From a virus, in IMG/VR virus record IMGVR_UViG_3300009609_000054, positions 1 through 25,868 of that record: a stretch of 25,868 bases of DNA, one strand, 5' to 3'. A program made the translations under genes and the position numbers. The first letter of the stretch is position 1, and each line of letters opens with the position of its first letter. Of the stretch, positions 4,147 to 15,997 are shown piece after piece. The notes under the pieces are model-generated. The model was not told where the DNA came from. It ran no database searches and saw only the letters and a list, made by a program, of their open reading frames with translations.

Positions 4147-5381
4147 CACCAGATCCCCGCGCTTGTCGGAATCCGCATATGCGCGGCACCGATTGCTAGA
4201 GCCATCACACAATCCTGCGTGAGAGAACGGTCATCCCACTGGTAGGTCATCAGTTCGCGCCTGGCCTGGTCTGACCATCTGGCCTTATAGCGCCGTTGTT
4301 CGAGCAGCAATTGCAACGATTGGATAGCTTGCACTTTTGATTTTGCCGTGGTCACGAATGGCTCGGCGTACACGTCAAGATTCTCGATGAGGGGATCACC
4401 GACGCCATTACTCTCGATAATCAGCCGGCCGGGATAGGCCCGCGCGCGCTCGGCGATACGCGCCTGAATCACCGGATAGGGGATACGTTCTAAACGGTCA
4501 AACGCGACAAGCTGAAACGGATCGGCAGTTGTATCCACGGTTGCGATCACGGTCGCATCCTGACGCCGGCCTACGTCCACTGAGGTCAGATAGCGCCGTC
4601 CGGTGATGGGTGCTGTCTCACCGATTGCGCCATCCTCAGCCGCGCTTATATCGTCCTGACGAAAGACGGTGAGTCCGGTATCGGCAAACTCGGCCAGTAT
4701 CTCGGCGGCGTACACCGTCGCGGGTAACATTGACTTGATATCGTCAAGCTCAGCGGCTGCGATGTAGGGATTTGCATGGGTTGGAAAGCGGAACGCAGAC
4801 CAGCCGGATTCCTTATTCATGCCACGCTGAAACAGAGCATGGAATCCATCGAGGCCGGCCGGTGTCGAGATCAGGTAGCAATCACCACGCAGCCGTGCCA
4901 GCGTCGGACGGATGACAGCAAAATAGGTGTGTTCAAGATCGGACACGAGGCGGGCCTCATCGACAATCACCCGTTTGTAGCGCCGGCCGCGTAGCGCGTT
5001 GGGATCATCGAGTGACCAGCCTTCAATCACACCGCCACTCATCAACTCAATCCGGTGTGCTTGCTCCTGGCGGCGAACAATGATTGGGTCAAGCCGTTCA
5101 CACAACTCGCGCCACACTTGCGTGAGCATCTTGTGAGTAGGCGCGCAGTAGGCGGTCGGCTGCGTGATCATCTCTTTGGTCATCAGTTGATGCTGAGCAA
5201 GGGTTGACTTGCCGAACTGGCGGCCACAGCACACGACCGTCTGCCGAGCGTGGCCGGCGACGATTGTGCGCTGCGCGGGATGGAGCCTCGGCTGCTCAAC
5301 CAAAATCGGCGTCGAGGATCTTGTGCCCAGAGGGCGCCCGTGCCCGCTCTTCTCGGATCTGGATAACGACTGTGCCGCCAT
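4146..5381 (-). CDS. terL: Terminase large subunit (ATPase-nuclease)
   Basis: This is the packaging motor that pumps DNA into the prohead and cuts it. Walker A GRQFGKST is at residues 53-60, Walker B VIVDEA at 138-143, and a coupling motif LISTP near 170-174. The C-terminal RNase H-like nuclease shows acidic residues in SVDVGRRQDATV (Asp269), IIESNGVGDPLIE (Glu323) and LTQDCVMALAIG (Asp390). At 411 residues it is slightly short for the family but complete. The start is uncertain: ATG 5381 overlaps terS by 86 bp and lacks a clear ribosome site, while a TTG at 5303 (reading MVEQPRLHPAQRTIV) would nearly abut the terS stop. Function is firm. Confidence 0.9.
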   Translation of the reverse strand: MAAQSLSRSEKSGHGRPLGTRSSTPILVEQPRLHPAQRTIVAGHARQTVVCCGRQFGKSTLAQHQLMTKEMITQPTAYCAPTHKMLTQVWRELCERLDPIIVRRQEQAHRIELMSGGVIEGWSLDDPNALRGRRYKRVIVDEARLVSDLEHTYFAVIRPTLARLRGDCYLISTPAGLDGFHALFQRGMNKESGWSAFRFPTHANPYIAAAELDDIKSMLPATVYAAEILAEFADTGLTVFRQDDISAAEDGAIGETAPITGRRYLTSVDVGRRQDATVIATVDTTADPFQLVAFDRLERIPYPVIQARIAERARAYPGRLIIESNGVGDPLIENLDVYAEPFVTTAKSKVQAIQSLQLLLEQRRYKARWSDQARRELMTYQWDDRSLTQDCVMALAIGAAHMRIPTSAGIW

Positions 5382-5592
5382 GATCGACGTTCTCGCTTAC
5401 CTTGCCGTATTTGCGGTCCATCAACTCTTTGAACGCTGCGACGTTGCCTTTCTTGGCCTGTCTGACCATCGCTATCGTCGCCGCGCGCTCTGCTGCCTCA
5501 TCAAAGACGGTTAGCAGGACCATCTGCTCACCATCTTCTTTTTTCTGCGGTGGCCGGCCTGGACCACCTTTCCAGCCCTTCTGAAATGGCAT
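5296..5592 (-). CDS. terS: Probable terminase small subunit
   Basis: A 98-residue protein directly before terL. It begins with a basic FQKGWKGGPGRPPQKK segment that resembles an AT-hook-like or DUF5681-type DNA-binding N-terminus. It is followed by a helical region (FDEAAERAATIAMVRQAKKGNVAAFKELMDRKYGKV) of the kind that oligomerises in small terminases. The small subunit recognises the packaging site and loads the large subunit. Assignment rests mainly on position and size; no specific family motif is decisive. The ribosome site is weak (GGA five bases upstream of ATG). An 18-bp perfect palindrome lies ten bases upstream. Confidence 0.65.
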   Translation of the reverse strand: MPFQKGWKGGPGRPPQKKEDGEQMVLLTVFDEAAERAATIAMVRQAKKGNVAAFKELMDRKYGKVSENVDHGGTVVIQIREERARAPSGHKILDADFG

Positions 5593-5601
5593 AGTTGTCC
5601 G

Positions 5602-5619
5602 TATTTAGATATCTAAATA
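5602..5619. promoter_or_regulatory. 18-bp perfect palindrome upstream of terS
   Basis: TATTTAGATATCTAAATA is a perfect dyad centred between 5610 and 5611, in an AT-rich island of otherwise GC-rich DNA. It lies between the end of the upstream gene (5658) and terS (5592). It could be a repressor operator, a packaging-recognition element or a coincidental dyad. No second copy was noticed in the window. Confidence 0.5.
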
Positions 5620-7706: not shown

Positions 7707-8237
7707 CTACGCCGCTATCATCGGCCATAAGTCGATCTGCTCACCGCGCTCTCGTTCCTGGTACATCTGCCAGATCGAGGAAACAATTCCGGTGCCAGGA
7801 AACAGATCGATCAACTCATCGCCGGGTTGCATGTTCAGCACATCAAAAATCCAGAAACAGAACGCTACTGGCTTTGCGCCTGTCAGACCCTTCCGAAGTG
7901 TCATACTCTCGGCCAGCCAATCACGGACGGTTGGTTGCTGCCGTGTGCGCTTGCGCCCGCCCAGTACTATCACTGGTTCCCACGCATAGGCCGGATTCAC
8001 ATTGGCCTTGAACGCACAGAACGGCTTGACCCAGGCCATCACCCGGACATCAGTAGGACAATACGAAAGAATCTGCTGCAAGCTCGGAGACGAGCACGAG
8101 AGCGCCCAACCATCGGGATAGTCGCGCTGCAGCTGCGGAATCAGTAGCGCGTGGTCAACTTCCGCGCAGTTCGGATCATGGCTATAGTGTTTCTGCGCTT
8201 GCCCGATGTAGGGCGGGTCGGCATAACAAAATCTCAT
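7707..8237 (-). CDS. DNA adenine methyltransferase-like protein (permuted motif order)
   Basis: The 176-residue protein starts MRFCYADPPYIGQ. The ATG at 8237 has an AAGGA ribosome site six bases upstream; the ATG at 8258 lacks one. DPPY (residues 7-10) is motif IV of N6-adenine/N4-cytosine methyltransferases. The SAM-binding motif DLFPGTG is near the C-terminus (~144-150), so the order IV...I is that of beta-class permuted enzymes. No restriction enzyme gene is adjacent, so this is an orphan methylase that may protect phage DNA. At 176 residues it is small, with a short target-recognition region, so its specificity cannot be read from sequence. Confidence 0.78.
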   Translation of the reverse strand: MRFCYADPPYIGQAQKHYSHDPNCAEVDHALLIPQLQRDYPDGWALSCSSPSLQQILSYCPTDVRVMAWVKPFCAFKANVNPAYAWEPVIVLGGRKRTRQQPTVRDWLAESMTLRKGLTGAKPVAFCFWIFDVLNMQPGDELIDLFPGTGIVSSIWQMYQERERGEQIDLWPMIAA

Positions 8238-8301
8238 CAGGTTCCTTAGCTTATGCAAAGCTCTGTTTACGATAGCAGGTGCAAAGGGCCATCTTCAAAA
8301 G

Positions 8302-12416: not shown

Positions 12417-12449
12417 AGCCGCCTCGACGGGCAAAACGTCGAGGCGGCT
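12417..12449 (+). terminator. Intrinsic terminator just upstream of the replication operon
   Basis: A perfect 13-bp stem AGCCGCCTCGACG / CGTCGAGGCGGCT with a 7-base loop, followed by TTGTATT. It lies 18 bp before ATG 12467. It may end the micro-ORF transcript or act as an attenuator of the operon. Confidence 0.75.
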
Positions 12450-12466: not shown

Positions 12467-12682
12467 ATGAGCATGCATAGTACCACATCTGAATCAGACT
12501 TTGCCCGCGAGCTCCGCGAGCTGCTCACGGAGCATGGCTGGCGTCAGGATTCAATCGACTTCCTAGCAGCCAAGAGTGAAGCCGAGATCGCGGCCAATCT
12601 AGGACCGCGATTCCTTGCTCGGCTTCGTCGTGAGCTGCGCCTGGCCGCATGCCAGCAACCCCCACGGGAGGAAACACCATGA
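12467..12682 (+). CDS. Small protein, first gene of the replication operon
   Basis: The 71 residues begin MSMHSTTSESDFARELREL and are helical and charged (SDFARELRELLTEHGWRQD, EAEIAANLGPRFLARLRREL). GAGG lies four bases before ATG 12467; ATG 12473 is an alternative. The stop overlaps the next gene start (12679). It could be a small regulator or replication partner, but no HTH is evident and I assign no function. Confidence 0.6.
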   Translation: MSMHSTTSESDFARELRELLTEHGWRQDSIDFLAAKSEAEIAANLGPRFLARLRRELRLAACQQPPREETP

Positions 12683-13764
12683 GTGTTGAACAATGGATTG
12701 CGCGGGATGCGCGTCGGCCCGGCCACTTCTGGGCCGATAATGAGATCTACGACCGCTATGCCCGTCTCATCGGCGTCAATGCGTTTGCTGTCTATATGTC
12801 GCTCACGCGCCACGCCGACAATCATGGAACCTGTTACCCGTCGCACCAGACGTTAGCTGATGACCTCGGACTCAGCCGGGCAACCGTCCTCCGAGCAATC
12901 CACATCCTAGAACGGCATGAACTGATCCATGTAGACGTTCGCCGGCTGCCTGTCCGTGGTCAGACAACCAATATCTACACCCTGATCCAGGTTGCTAAAA
13001 CCGCTGTTGCAGAAAGTGACAGCGGTAGCAAAACCCCTGTTGCTGTGGTTGACAGCGGTGGTGCTACCGCTGTTGCTGTGGTTGACAGCCAAGCCAAACC
13101 GCTGTCAACCACAGCAACCCCCCCTGTATCTCTGCAACAGGGGGGGTATCACACAGCAACACCCCCTGTTGCTGTGGTTGACAGCCATATTAACAATACC
13201 CACGTTAACAAGACCCAATTAACAACCACCACCATACCTCCTCCGGCGCCAGTCCTCCGGTTGATTCCCGGTGGTGGTGGTGGTGGTGGAGGAGATGTTT
13301 ACGAAAGAGACGACGATGGAGAGCGGATCGACGTGGAGATTGTTGATGCGTGCGAGATCGAAAGTGAGCAGACACGCCGCGCCGAGCTGGTCGATCAACT
13401 CGTCGCCCTGGGCGTATGGCGCTCCAAAGCGGTTGAAGCGGTAGACGCCGGCACGGTTACGACTGAGCACGATATTGTGTGCTGTAAGCGTTTCGTCGCC
13501 GCGTCTACTGCGGAGCGTCCGGCTTCGACGCTCTGGTCTAACTGGCTTGCTGGTGGTGACGTGCCACCGCTCCCCCAGACCACGCCGTCGAGCGTGACGC
13601 CGGACCTCATCGCAGCAGCTCGTGCGATGCGTGAGGAGTCCGACCGGATGCAGCAAACGCCGGTTGACACGGTTGGTCCGGCTGGCATAGCCGCAGCAAT
13701 CAGGCAGGGATCAATGCGTGCGTTCCCCGCAAAGAAGCGCGCGTTTGACTGGGTGCAGCCATGA
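12679..13764 (+). CDS. Winged-helix replication initiator-like protein with internal origin-like repeats
   Basis: The 361 residues start at ATG 12679 (GGGAGGA eight bases upstream; the in-frame ATG at 12649 lacks this). The N-terminal ~105 residues are a winged HTH of the phage replication-initiator type: FWADNEIYDRYARLIGVNAF, then YPSHQTLADDLGLSRATVLR and AIHILERHELIHV. The middle (~115-205) is low complexity with repeated PVAVVDS and an eight-Gly run, and its DNA forms iteron-like repeats. The C-terminal ~100 residues (ELVDQLVALGVWRSKAVEAV, STLWSNWLAGG) resemble helicase-loader-like tails seen in such proteins. The stop overlaps the next ATG (ATGA). Confidence 0.72.
   Translation: MSVEQWIARDARRPGHFWADNEIYDRYARLIGVNAFAVYMSLTRHADNHGTCYPSHQTLADDLGLSRATVLRAIHILERHELIHVDVRRLPVRGQTTNIYTLIQVAKTAVAESDSGSKTPVAVVDSGGATAVAVVDSQAKPLSTTATPPVSLQQGGYHTATPPVAVVDSHINNTHVNKTQLTTTTIPPPAPVLRLIPGGGGGGGGDVYERDDDGERIDVEIVDACEIESEQTRRAELVDQLVALGVWRSKAVEAVDAGTVTTEHDIVCCKRFVAASTAERPASTLWSNWLAGGDVPPLPQTTPSSVTPDLIAAARAMREESDRMQQTPVDTVGPAGIAAAIRQGSMRAFPAKKRAFDWVQP
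13004..13226 (+). other. Putative replication origin inside the initiator gene
   Basis: Three perfect direct copies of CTGTTGCTGTGGTTGACAGC (13037-13056, 13070-13089, 13166-13185), one inverted copy matching 18 of 20 (13101-13118) and one degenerate copy (13004-13023, 15 of 20) are present. A CCCCCCCTGT / ACAGGGGGGG dyad (13118-13146) lies among them. Immediately after comes an AT-rich segment with three TTAACAA units (13189-13225). Iterons followed by an AT-rich unwinding region within the initiator gene is the lambda ori arrangement. Function is inferred. Confidence 0.68.
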
Positions 13765-14534
13765 GCGAACGACGCGCAACCTATGGTGAAGGTCGAGATA
13801 CCGAAGATAAGCTCGATCTCTTTGCGGCCCTGCTCAACTTGCATATGACGATATGTAGCGAGAAAGTCTGGTGTCCACGCTATGAATATATTGATATGAA
13901 CGCCGGACCAGGCATAGCGCCACAACTGCAAATCCACGGGAGTCCGTTGCTCTTCCTTGATACCATCAGGCGATTCAAGCTGTCATATCATGCCCTGATG
14001 ATAGAGCAGGATGGCAGATCAGCCGTGGAGTTGCGTGATCGGATCGGCATTGACGACCATACACGCGTGGTTCAAGGCGATCATGCACTCGTCGTCCCAC
14101 AGCACATTCGCACGCTGGCAGGGCAACCCGCCGGCATCATTCATCACGATCCAAACGGATTGCCATCGTGGGACGTGTTACGAGACATCTTTGCTCATCC
14201 GCAAGCCAAACGGCTCGACCTCTTTATGTATTGCCGGACCAATGATGTGCGGCGGGTGAATGGCTACCGCTACAATCGCGGGATTCCTGACATCACGTTG
14301 CCGGAAGGACTCGCGGCAATCAAGAAAGACTACTGGCTCATCCGCACACCACGCAAGGCGTCATGCTGGACCTATATCATCGGTACCAACTGGCCCGGAT
14401 TCCCCGAATGGCGTAAGAACGGCGTGTATCGGTTGGAAAGCAAGGAAGGTCAAGCTATCTTGCACAATGTCACGTTCCGACCGAAGCAACCGCCCGAACT
14501 CGACCAGCAAGCAATCCCGCTTGAATTGCTATAA
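13761..14534 (+). CDS. tcmP: Three-Cys-motif partner protein (TcmP-like), methyltransferase-like
   Basis: The 257-residue protein starts at ATG 13761, overlapping the initiator stop. It resembles TcmP proteins, which are named for occurring beside phage Gp37/Gp68 (DUF5131) three-Cys proteins, exactly as here. YIDMNAGPG (residues 43-51) looks like a SAM-binding motif I, and IIHHDPNG (126-133) like a motif IV with DPNG in place of DPPY/DPFG, so a Rossmann methyltransferase fold is plausible. The N-terminal GRDTEDKLDLFAALLNLHMT and the C-terminal KASCWTYIIGTNWPGFPEW segments fit this. Substrate is unknown to me. It is co-transcribed with the ParB-radical-SAM fusion eight bases downstream. Confidence 0.75.
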   Translation: MSERRATYGEGRDTEDKLDLFAALLNLHMTICSEKVWCPRYEYIDMNAGPGIAPQLQIHGSPLLFLDTIRRFKLSYHALMIEQDGRSAVELRDRIGIDDHTRVVQGDHALVVPQHIRTLAGQPAGIIHHDPNGLPSWDVLRDIFAHPQAKRLDLFMYCRTNDVRRVNGYRYNRGIPDITLPEGLAAIKKDYWLIRTPRKASCWTYIIGTNWPGFPEWRKNGVYRLESKEGQAILHNVTFRPKQPPELDQQAIPLELL

Positions 14535-14542
14535 GGATGGAT

Positions 14543-15997
14543 ATGTATACTCGCACGATAGCAGACCTTCATCCGCATCCCCGCAACGCTGCGATCTACG
14601 GCGATAGTGCCGACGCAGACTTGATTGAGAGTGTCAGGTCGAAGGGCATACTCAATCCGTTACTGATTGCCCACGATGGGACGATCATCAGTGGACACCG
14701 CCGCCTGATTGCCGCGCAACGCGTCGGCCTGGCCGATGTTCCGGTTGTGATCTATGGATCGGATGATGATCTCGACATCCTTGAGGCATTGATTGAAAGT
14801 AACCGGCAACGTGAGAAAACCAATTATCAAGTCGGTCGTGAAGCTGCTGCGTCCCTTGAAATTGAGCACGAACGCGCTCGGCGGCGGCAAGCGGTCCGAT
14901 CTTTACTTCCGCAGAATTCTGCGGAAGTAAACGGGGATGCCCGCAAGATCGTTGCTGATAAGCTCGGCATGTCACACCCGAAAGTCACGCAAGCCGCAGC
15001 CGTGGTCGAGGTGATAGACAAACTCACCGAGGCCGGCGATACCCGCCATGCTGACCAGCTCCGCACGGTGCTTAATGACAAGAGTGTTCACGCGGCGTAT
15101 AAGAAAGCAAAGGACGATGGGCACATCGCCGTTGCCGATGCTGAGACGTCGAAGGATGCACCCGCCATGCAAGACGCGTATACGCTTTTCGAGTGGGACG
15201 CTATGACAGCCGCTGCTCAGCAAGCACTCATTAGTGGCGCGTTGCTCCATCCACCACGCGGCAAGATGAACTTTCAAAAGACAGACAACATTGAGTGGGC
15301 GTTCTGGTCGTGGAATCCAATCACCGGCTGTTATCACGATTGCATCTACTGCTATGCCCGCGATATTGCGAACCGCTACTATCCGCAGAAGTTCGACGCC
15401 GCGATACTGCCACACCGCTTGACCATTCCACGCTACCAGCAGCCGCCCACGCACGCCAAAGAGCAGATCGGCTATAAGAATATCTTTACCTGTAGCATGG
15501 CTGATCTGTTCGGCAAGTGGGTACCACAACCCTGGATCGATGCTGTTCTGGACACGGTACGCAAATCCCCACAGTGGAACTTTCTGTTTCTCACCAAGTT
15601 CCCGATCCGATTGTCTGAGCAGACCTGGCCGGATAATGCGTGGGTTGGCTGCACAGTTGACCGCCAGGCCCGCGTTGCGAGTGCCGAGCGTGCATTCCGC
15701 AAGGTCAAGGCCGGCCTCAAGTGGCTGTCGTGCGAACCGCTCCTCGAACCGCTCACCTTCACATCACTTGAAATGTTCGACTGGATCGTGATTGGCGGGC
15801 AGACCAAGAGCACGCAGGCACCAGCATTTGATCCACCGTGGGAATGGATCGAGAGCCTTGTGAACCAGGCACGCGCGGCCGGCTGCAAGGTCTATTTCAA
15901 AACGAATCTCCACGCGCGGCCAAAGGAATATCCGTTCAGCGAAAGGGGTACACATGATGATTCAGTTCATCCGCTATCGCCTGGCCGATCTCGCTGA
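14543..15997 (+). CDS. ParB-like nuclease domain fused to a radical-SAM-like Gp37/Gp68 (DUF5131) domain
   Basis: About 484 residues. ATG 14543 is preferred (AAGGA five bases upstream); ATG 14537 adds two residues. Residues ~5-70 are a ParB/Srx domain (LHPHPRNAAIY, SKGILNPLLIAHDGTIISGHRRL, with GHRR at 51-54), followed by a ParB-type HTH region (ARKIVADKLGMSHPKVTQA). From ~240 the Gp37/Gp68 domain begins (IEWAFWSWNPITGCYHDCIYC) with Cys263, Cys267 and Cys270 in the CxxxCxxC pattern that binds the 4Fe-4S cluster of radical SAM enzymes. Later segments MADLFGKWVP, FLFLTKFP, WLSCEPLLEPL and DWIVIGGQT fit the family. The fusion suggests a DNA-targeted radical reaction, which is inference. A 30-bp palindrome lies within the gene. 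Confidence 0.8.
   Translation: MYTRTIADLHPHPRNAAIYGDSADADLIESVRSKGILNPLLIAHDGTIISGHRRLIAAQRVGLADVPVVIYGSDDDLDILEALIESNRQREKTNYQVGREAAASLEIEHERARRRQAVRSLLPQNSAEVNGDARKIVADKLGMSHPKVTQAAAVVEVIDKLTEAGDTRHADQLRTVLNDKSVHAAYKKAKDDGHIAVADAETSKDAPAMQDAYTLFEWDAMTAAAQQALISGALLHPPRGKMNFQKTDNIEWAFWSWNPITGCYHDCIYCYARDIANRYYPQKFDAAILPHRLTIPRYQQPPTHAKEQIGYKNIFTCSMADLFGKWVPQPWIDAVLDTVRKSPQWNFLFLTKFPIRLSEQTWPDNAWVGCTVDRQARVASAERAFRKVKAGLKWLSCEPLLEPLTFTSLEMFDWIVIGGQTKSTQAPAFDPPWEWIESLVNQARAAGCKVYFKTNLHARPKEYPFSERGTHDDSVHPLSPGRSR
14902..14931. promoter_or_regulatory. 30-bp perfect palindrome inside the ParB-fusion gene
   Basis: The half-site TTTACTTCCGCAGAA (14902-14916) is followed directly by its exact reverse complement (14917-14931), with GAATTC at the centre. 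It encodes the linker between the ParB and HTH parts (LLPQNSAEVN). ParB proteins bind palindromic parS sites, often near parB, so this could be its own binding site. It could also be an RNA hairpin. Confidence 0.6.

Follow-up and report, generated by a model that had tools for sequence, protein, structure and literature searches.

A phage gene cassette that pairs a TcmP-like protein with a ParB-DUF5131 fusion and may direct chemical modification to DNA

The genes for TcmP and for a three-Cys Gp37/Gp68 (DUF5131) protein form a common gene pair. The pair is known as such and appears to be represented in PADLOC by the candidate families PDC-M30 and PDC-M41, and in 398 Pseudomonadota genomes DUF5131 adjoins TcmP in all 23 that have an above-cut-off TcmP. 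DUF5131 is not named in the open-access literature searched, subscription journals and preprints lying beyond that search, and the main text of a 2025 PNAS survey of ParB-fold fusions contains none of the words radical, DUF5131, and Gp37, hence no such fusion (PMC12704722). Here, we analyzed a viral stretch of 25,868 nucleotides (the window: IMG/VR virus record IMGVR_UViG_3300009609_000054, positions 1 to 25,868, one strand given), in which a TcmP-like gene is followed by a gene that fuses a ParB domain and a helix-turn-helix (HTH) region to DUF5131. New here are the phage clade of ParB-fused proteins, an HNH partner, a palindrome embedded in the fusion gene, and a copy on a plasmid of a cultured Streptomyces. 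We regard it as an even call whether this conserved phage cassette serves DNA-directed chemical modification. The features of the two genes are as follows (aa, amino acids; SAM, S-adenosylmethionine).

13761..14534, + strand: TcmP-like (RlmJ-fold) methyltransferase-like protein P0001, 257 aa
13809..13811, + strand: Lys17, candidate counterpart of the essential Lys18 of RlmJ (motif X)
13887..13913, + strand: SAM-binding motif I, YIDMNAGPG, aa 43-51, read from the sequence
14148..14159, + strand: motif IV, DPNG, aa 130-133, with Asp130 as candidate counterpart of RlmJ Asp164 in DPPY
14543..15997, + strand: ParB_N-HTH-DUF5131 fusion protein P0002 (longest open reading frame from 14537, 486 aa)
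14597..14797, + strand: ParB_N/Srx-fold domain with GHRR, aa 21-87 (PF02195, E 1e-9)
14822..15121, + strand: helical/HTH region after ParB_N (model helices 96-193; ParB matches span more than 200 columns)
14902..14931, + strand: perfect 30-bp palindrome TTTACTTCCGCAGAATTCTGCGGAAGTAAA in the fusion gene, between ParB_N and HTH
15287..15904, + strand: DUF5131/Gp37-Gp68 domain, aa 251-456 (PF07505, E 4e-40)
15329..15352, + strand: CX3CX2C radical-SAM-type cluster motif, read from the sequence

Scanning with the DUF5131 domain yielded the 80 most similar viral loci, and the counts given below for viral loci are taken from these matches listed and are not frequencies. Nearly all of the loci closest to the window encode N-terminally extended proteins. 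An iterative ParB profile detected ParB in at least 27 distinct viral contigs with a ParB-DUF5131 fusion, while Pfam alone, applied to 35 of the proteins, assigned ParB_N to 9 and DUF3102 to 1. The fusion is thus not peculiar to the window: in one other viral contig (L002), a TcmP-like gene precedes a full-length fusion 56% identical to that of the window, and the matches listed include over 25 further fusions. A TcmP-like gene lies no more than 525 bp from 25 of these 27 fusions and from 7 additional extended proteins devoid of ParB, versus 0 of 39 standalone CX3CX2C DUF5131 loci among the matches listed (Fisher p 3e-16, for loci that are related and not independent events). The co-occurrence that a preliminary description of this DNA had called for was therefore observed. 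Full-length identity of the fused or paired relatives to the window protein ranges from 29 to 57%, indicating that the gene arrangement has outlasted great divergence.

In a maximum-likelihood tree of the DUF5131 domain, all fused or TcmP-paired phage members form one clade (34 rows, support 100/100). The standalone CX3CX2C proteins fall outside it, and so does the CX6CX2C clade (100/98) to which the chromosomal partners of TcmP belong. The Cys spacing makes the same kind of division between loci L021-L070 and L071-L149, CX6CX2C being chromosomal with TcmP and CX3CX2C occurring in most viral members. N termini other than ParB are scattered inside the phage clade and force at least five changes; thus, the N-terminal module has been swapped repeatedly, with the radical-SAM part and TcmP retained. 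Among these alternative N termini, that of L074 matches DUF3102 above the cut-off, and those of L008 and L169 give weak matches to it.

The cassette also occurs in Streptomyces. Plasmid NZ_CP108074.1 of Streptomyces caniferus NBC_00270 carries both genes with a 4-bp overlap (TcmP, WP_328743621.1; ParB-DUF5131, WP_328743619.1), and a perfect palindrome, again of 30 bp, is embedded in the fusion gene; this copy (L168 1-4305) lies near genes for Ku and an ATP-dependent DNA ligase. In Streptomyces sp. NBC_01238 the pair is present with a weakly DUF3102-like N terminus. Searching 50,697 INPHARED phage records by tblastn found DUF5131 in 147 of them, but no match spanned 80% of the fusion; in the same records, P0001 had no TcmP relative. 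A scan of the genome collection with a two-sequence alignment (A1) gave one ordinary chromosomal ParB and no fusion. The long "fusions" apparent in the chromosomal DUF5131 frames L048 and L049 were rejected, as they reflect spurious upstream starts and have no ParB. In phages of Mycobacterium and Rhizobium, standalone DUF5131 genes of the CX6CX2C type directly adjoin ASCH/ASC-1 genes (L016 3986-5385; L017 3995-5229).

The first protein, P0001, has TIGR04474 (TcmP) as its sole NCBIfam match (E 2.2e-11; 44.2 bits, under the curated cut-off of 53). Homology to accepted TcmP was evident when the phage set was compared with chromosomal TcmP profile to profile by hhalign (99.0%, E 6.6e-18), and in an iterative profile check TIGR04474 was matched by 12 of 23 phage relatives at E<=0.01, with none of them matching any other NCBIfam family. 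A second trait of TcmP, an adjoining three-Cys Gp37/Gp68 (DUF5131) gene, is present in the window as well. On this point the preliminary description was right about the adjacency and needed refinement on the cysteines, the chromosomal partners having CX6CX2C and not CX3CX2C. Weak TIGR04474 matches of about 280 to 340 aa are common in the 398 Pseudomonadota genomes, E. coli included, and are most likely RlmJ rather than TcmP.

The AlphaFold2 (AF2) model of P0001 has a predicted local distance difference test score (pLDDT) of 88.6. When it was compared with the PDB, the top 13 matches were all RlmJ (E 1.9e-8 to 5.6e-7, template modeling score about 0.54), which supports the SAM-type fold proposed for this protein, as the profile comparison supports its TcmP homology. 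In RlmJ, the K18A and D164A variants are inactive, making Lys18 (motif X) and Asp164 (DPPY) essential (PMC3814359). Across 23 phage TcmP-like sequences, Lys17, D45 in motif I, and D130 in motif IV are invariant, G49 and G51 are nearly invariant, and P131 and N132 nearly so; judging from motif order, Lys17 is a candidate equivalent of RlmJ Lys18. Since the third and fourth letters of motif IV differ (DPNG versus DPPY), adenine N6 is not necessarily the target. Together, TcmP and RlmJ appear to make up a single superfamily.

For the second protein, P0002, Pfam placed both ends of the fusion above its cut-offs: PF02195 (ParB_N, with GHRR at aa 53-56) scored 38.8 bits against a cut-off of 26.3 and PF07505 (DUF5131) 138.3 bits against a gathering cut-off of 28.9. 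Foldseek matched the N-terminal part to ParB, KorB, and Noc (E 1e-7 to 1e-4). ParB/Srx, HTH, and Gp37/Gp68 are thus joined in one chain as had been proposed, and the link to DNA through ParB and HTH is borne out by both Pfam and fold. An AAGGA Shine-Dalgarno sequence is better placed for the second ATG, at 14543, from which the gap to the TcmP-like gene is the 8 bases reported earlier. The cluster cysteines, whose spacing is canonical for a radical-SAM motif, are Cys263/267/270 when counted from that start and Cys265/269/272 from the first ATG. All three are invariant in 35 fused or TcmP-paired proteins. A predicted viral protein of equal full length in BFVD (A0A1B1IPY1) is 31% identical to P0002.

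Radical_SAM (PF04055) matches aa 260-284 at E 0.0095 and 16.6 bits, under its cut-off of 29.5. The AF2 model of P0002 has a pLDDT of 90.2 and a predicted template modeling score of 0.63, so the domain folds can be trusted and their mutual arrangement cannot. Its C-terminal part matched spore photoproduct lyase best (4fhg, E 1.5e-3, prob 1.00) and RlmN second (E 7e-3). Profile comparison aligned DUF5131 with the PA0069 radical-SAM family (96.7%, E 4.6e-10) across NPxxGCxHxCxYCYAR. These data agree with the earlier assignment of a radical-SAM-like domain, in which cluster formation and SAM cleavage are predicted from motif and model. Cys319 (FTCSMAD) was considered as a counterpart of the H-donor Cys in spore photoproduct lyase and rejected, being off by one relative to SCYTD of L152 and not nearly invariant.

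The palindrome embedded in the fusion gene is a recurrent trait. Its exact core occurs once in the window, and no further copies were found in the viral contigs; the palindromes of relatives differ in sequence, mostly start 20 to 40 residues past the end of ParB_N, and often have a GCAGATCTGC-like center in common. Over all loci scanned, the N-terminal halves of fused genes carry strong palindromes at 27.6 times the density of the remaining sequence (19 in 26 kb versus 16 in 606 kb). With 100 synonymous codon shuffles per gene half as the null, the lowest possible p was reached by 18 of 37 N-terminal halves versus 0 of 34 DUF5131 halves; therefore, the encoded peptide does not account for the palindromes. 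Most have a loop of 0, which is usual in DNA dyads but not in RNA hairpins, and such zero or short loops favor a DNA dyad to which a dimeric protein binds.

The main rival to modification of DNA is modification of RNA, in which TcmP and the radical enzyme would act on tRNA, rRNA, or a phage transcript and the ParB/HTH part would merely regulate the operon or serve as a tether. We consider this unlikely. RlmJ is the nearest fold of TcmP, RlmN is the second radical-SAM match, ASCH/ASC-1 genes adjoin some standalone phage DUF5131 genes, and the palindrome, as RNA, would form a strong hairpin as well (z -4.8). However, the loops are mostly 0 as in DNA dyads, RlmN ranked below spore photoproduct lyase, and the covalent ParB/HTH fusion persists across a diverse clade in which it is exchanged for other putative DNA-binding N termini.

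A third gene bears on a different alternative. A small HNH-type protein is encoded in 17 of 34 cassettes among the matches listed, by a gene that either separates TcmP from the fusion or follows closely downstream; none of the 39 standalone CX3CX2C loci has it, and HNH was the sole recurrent third gene found in the neighborhood survey. Its pattern is YxxYxEYLxHPxF...CxxC...HHLxYPxWGxFD...PENL...CHxCHCxxHGK, and in L007 it is fused to TcmP. These observations fit a phage restriction-modification or rival-exclusion system, in which TcmP and the radical enzyme would mark self DNA and HNH would cut unmarked rivals or the host. PADLOC candidate defense models likewise match DUF5131 strongly and TcmP weakly (for PDC-M30/PDC-M41, E 1e-37 to 1e-38 with the B models and at best E 1.9e-4, over about 60 residues, with the A models), and an expression table for S. 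meliloti lists a TcmP gene alongside the Hna phage defense gene (SMa2243 and SMa2245; PMC12445080). Yet this HNH gene is missing from half of the cassettes, that of the window among them, the Pfam HNH scores of the small partner fall slightly below the cut-off, and free-standing HNH genes are common in phages. We rate this alternative as unlikely, somewhat below RNA modification.

It is very unlikely that P0002 is a partition or autoregulatory protein acting through its ParB part with DUF5131 as an accessory. The ParB fold, the placement of cassettes in replication modules, and the likeness of the in-gene palindrome to parS, which sits within spo0J in B. subtilis, speak for it. Nevertheless, no parA gene was seen beside the window cassette, nor any ParA match among the window proteins scanned (some open reading frames were left unscanned). 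Moreover, the partition family TIGR00180 scored 49.7 bits, under its cut-off of 58.45, the Fe-S cysteines are invariant, and the TcmP partnership is conserved, whereas partition ParB proteins are not known to have methyltransferase partners. DNA repair, with a radical enzyme reversing a base lesion and TcmP as a processing factor, is the least probable alternative: spore photoproduct lyase is the top radical-SAM fold match and the motif region resembles it, but repair leaves the dedicated methyltransferase, the in-gene palindrome, and the HNH partner without a role, and membership in the SplB-like PA0069 family (NF033668) fails at 21.8 bits versus a cut-off of 360.

We thus return to DNA-directed modification. 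That DNA would be the substrate is suggested by the ParB/HTH part, the exchange of N-terminal modules, the relation to spore photoproduct lyase, and the recurrence of ParB-like modules in DNA modification settings, namely, methyltransferase fusions, CmoX neighborhoods, DpdB, and DndB. The ParB/HTH part may dimerize on the in-gene palindrome and load onto the DNA that bears the gene, possibly as a nucleoside triphosphate-gated clamp, which would keep the radical enzyme attached to the genome of the phage itself. The DUF5131 domain would then activate a base by reductive SAM cleavage, and TcmP would act next, at an exocyclic amine, either by methylation or by processing of the product. The mark would be placed preferentially on self DNA because the loading site lies within the gene itself, and the outcome could be shielding from host restriction or a self/non-self label read by the HNH nuclease. 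The strictest version, in which a clamp loaded at its own-gene palindrome lets the radical-SAM and RlmJ-like enzymes hypermodify cassette-bearing DNA only and HNH acts on unmarked DNA, is doubtful; if true, it would be a new kind of self-marking DNA modification. More generally, if DNA is the substrate, a radical-chemistry route would be added to phage DNA modification.

Several observations weigh against this proposal. TcmP lacks the DPPY tyrosine in its DPN/DPFG motif, and both RlmJ, its methyltransferase relative, and RlmN, one of the two radical-SAM fold neighbors, act on RNA. The fold match of DUF5131 is modest (E 1.5e-3), and its sequence profile gave only chance matches in the PDB, with no radical-SAM protein. 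Seven cassette members have no ParB, TcmP went undetected beside two ParB fusions (L077 and L081), and no HNH gene separates the two cassette genes of the window. The ParB motif is GHRR without the Glu of GERR, so ParB-type clamp cycling may not operate here. Palindromes also occur in some unfused ParB-like genes (the second ParB of L079, and L171) and are absent from most of those tested; they are therefore a trait of a subset of ParB modules, not of DUF5131. In sum, the earlier interpretation is partly supported: the TcmP homology, the folds, the DNA link, and the co-occurrence hold, whereas phage DNA as the substrate, sequential action of the two modules, and an anti-restriction purpose are putative. 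The textbook radical-SAM motif and the covalent DNA-binding link make the substrate question directly testable, the palindrome is a defined DNA sequence with which binding could be assayed, and the cultured Streptomyces plasmid carries the cassette intact.

The window contains terminase, portal, and tail tape-measure genes together with a tyrosine integrase. Immediately upstream of the cassette, as context outside the system, lies one further gene.

12649..13764, + strand: replication-initiation protein (PHROG 270, E 2.1e-17; HTH_36, E 8.9e-15)

Its end overlaps the start of the TcmP-like gene by 4 bp (ATGA). As the three + strand genes nearly overlap, they probably share one transcript. Within the replication-initiation gene, iteron-like direct and inverted copies of GTTGCTGTGGTTGACAGC at 12997-13191 are likely the phage replication origin. 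Between the integrase and the early operon, a strong 13-pair stem with a T-rich tail (12417-12449) is terminator-like on both strands. Elsewhere, a short DPPY protein (7707-8258, - strand) weakly matches a DNA methyltransferase of the D12 type (E 0.004, short of the cut-off) and has no PHROG, and a perfect 18-bp palindrome, TATTTAGATATCTAAATA, lies at 5602-5619, just upstream of the gene at 5296-5592 (- strand).

Compared with known systems, the cassette resembles the chromosomal TcmP/three-Cys Gp37-Gp68 pair, to which PDC-M30/PDC-M41 appear to correspond, in that one gene from each of these families stands beside the other. It differs in that the chromosomal DUF5131 is standalone and CX6CX2C, with a TcmP that has DPYG, DPFG, or DQYG, whereas the phage clade is ParB-fused and CX3CX2C and has DPN. 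With RlmJ, the 23S rRNA A2030 N6-methyltransferase, the TcmP-like protein has in common the fold, the GSPLI motif, the conserved N-terminal Lys, and the motif IV Asp; it has DPN(G) for DPPY, its partner, context, and probable substrate differ, and similarity can hardly be detected at the sequence level (E 0.58 for the profile of chromosomal TcmP). The NPxxGCxHxCxYCYAR cluster motif and a barrel-like fold are found in spore photoproduct lyase and PA0069-type (SplB-like) proteins, to which the phage protein adds ParB/HTH and an obligate methyltransferase neighbor, while missing the PA0069 cut-off. Finally, like the phage ParB-methyltransferase fusions described in the ParB-fold survey (PMC12704722) and those at L175 and L177, it joins ParB_N to a nucleic acid-modifying enzyme, but the enzyme here is a radical-SAM-type DUF5131 domain.

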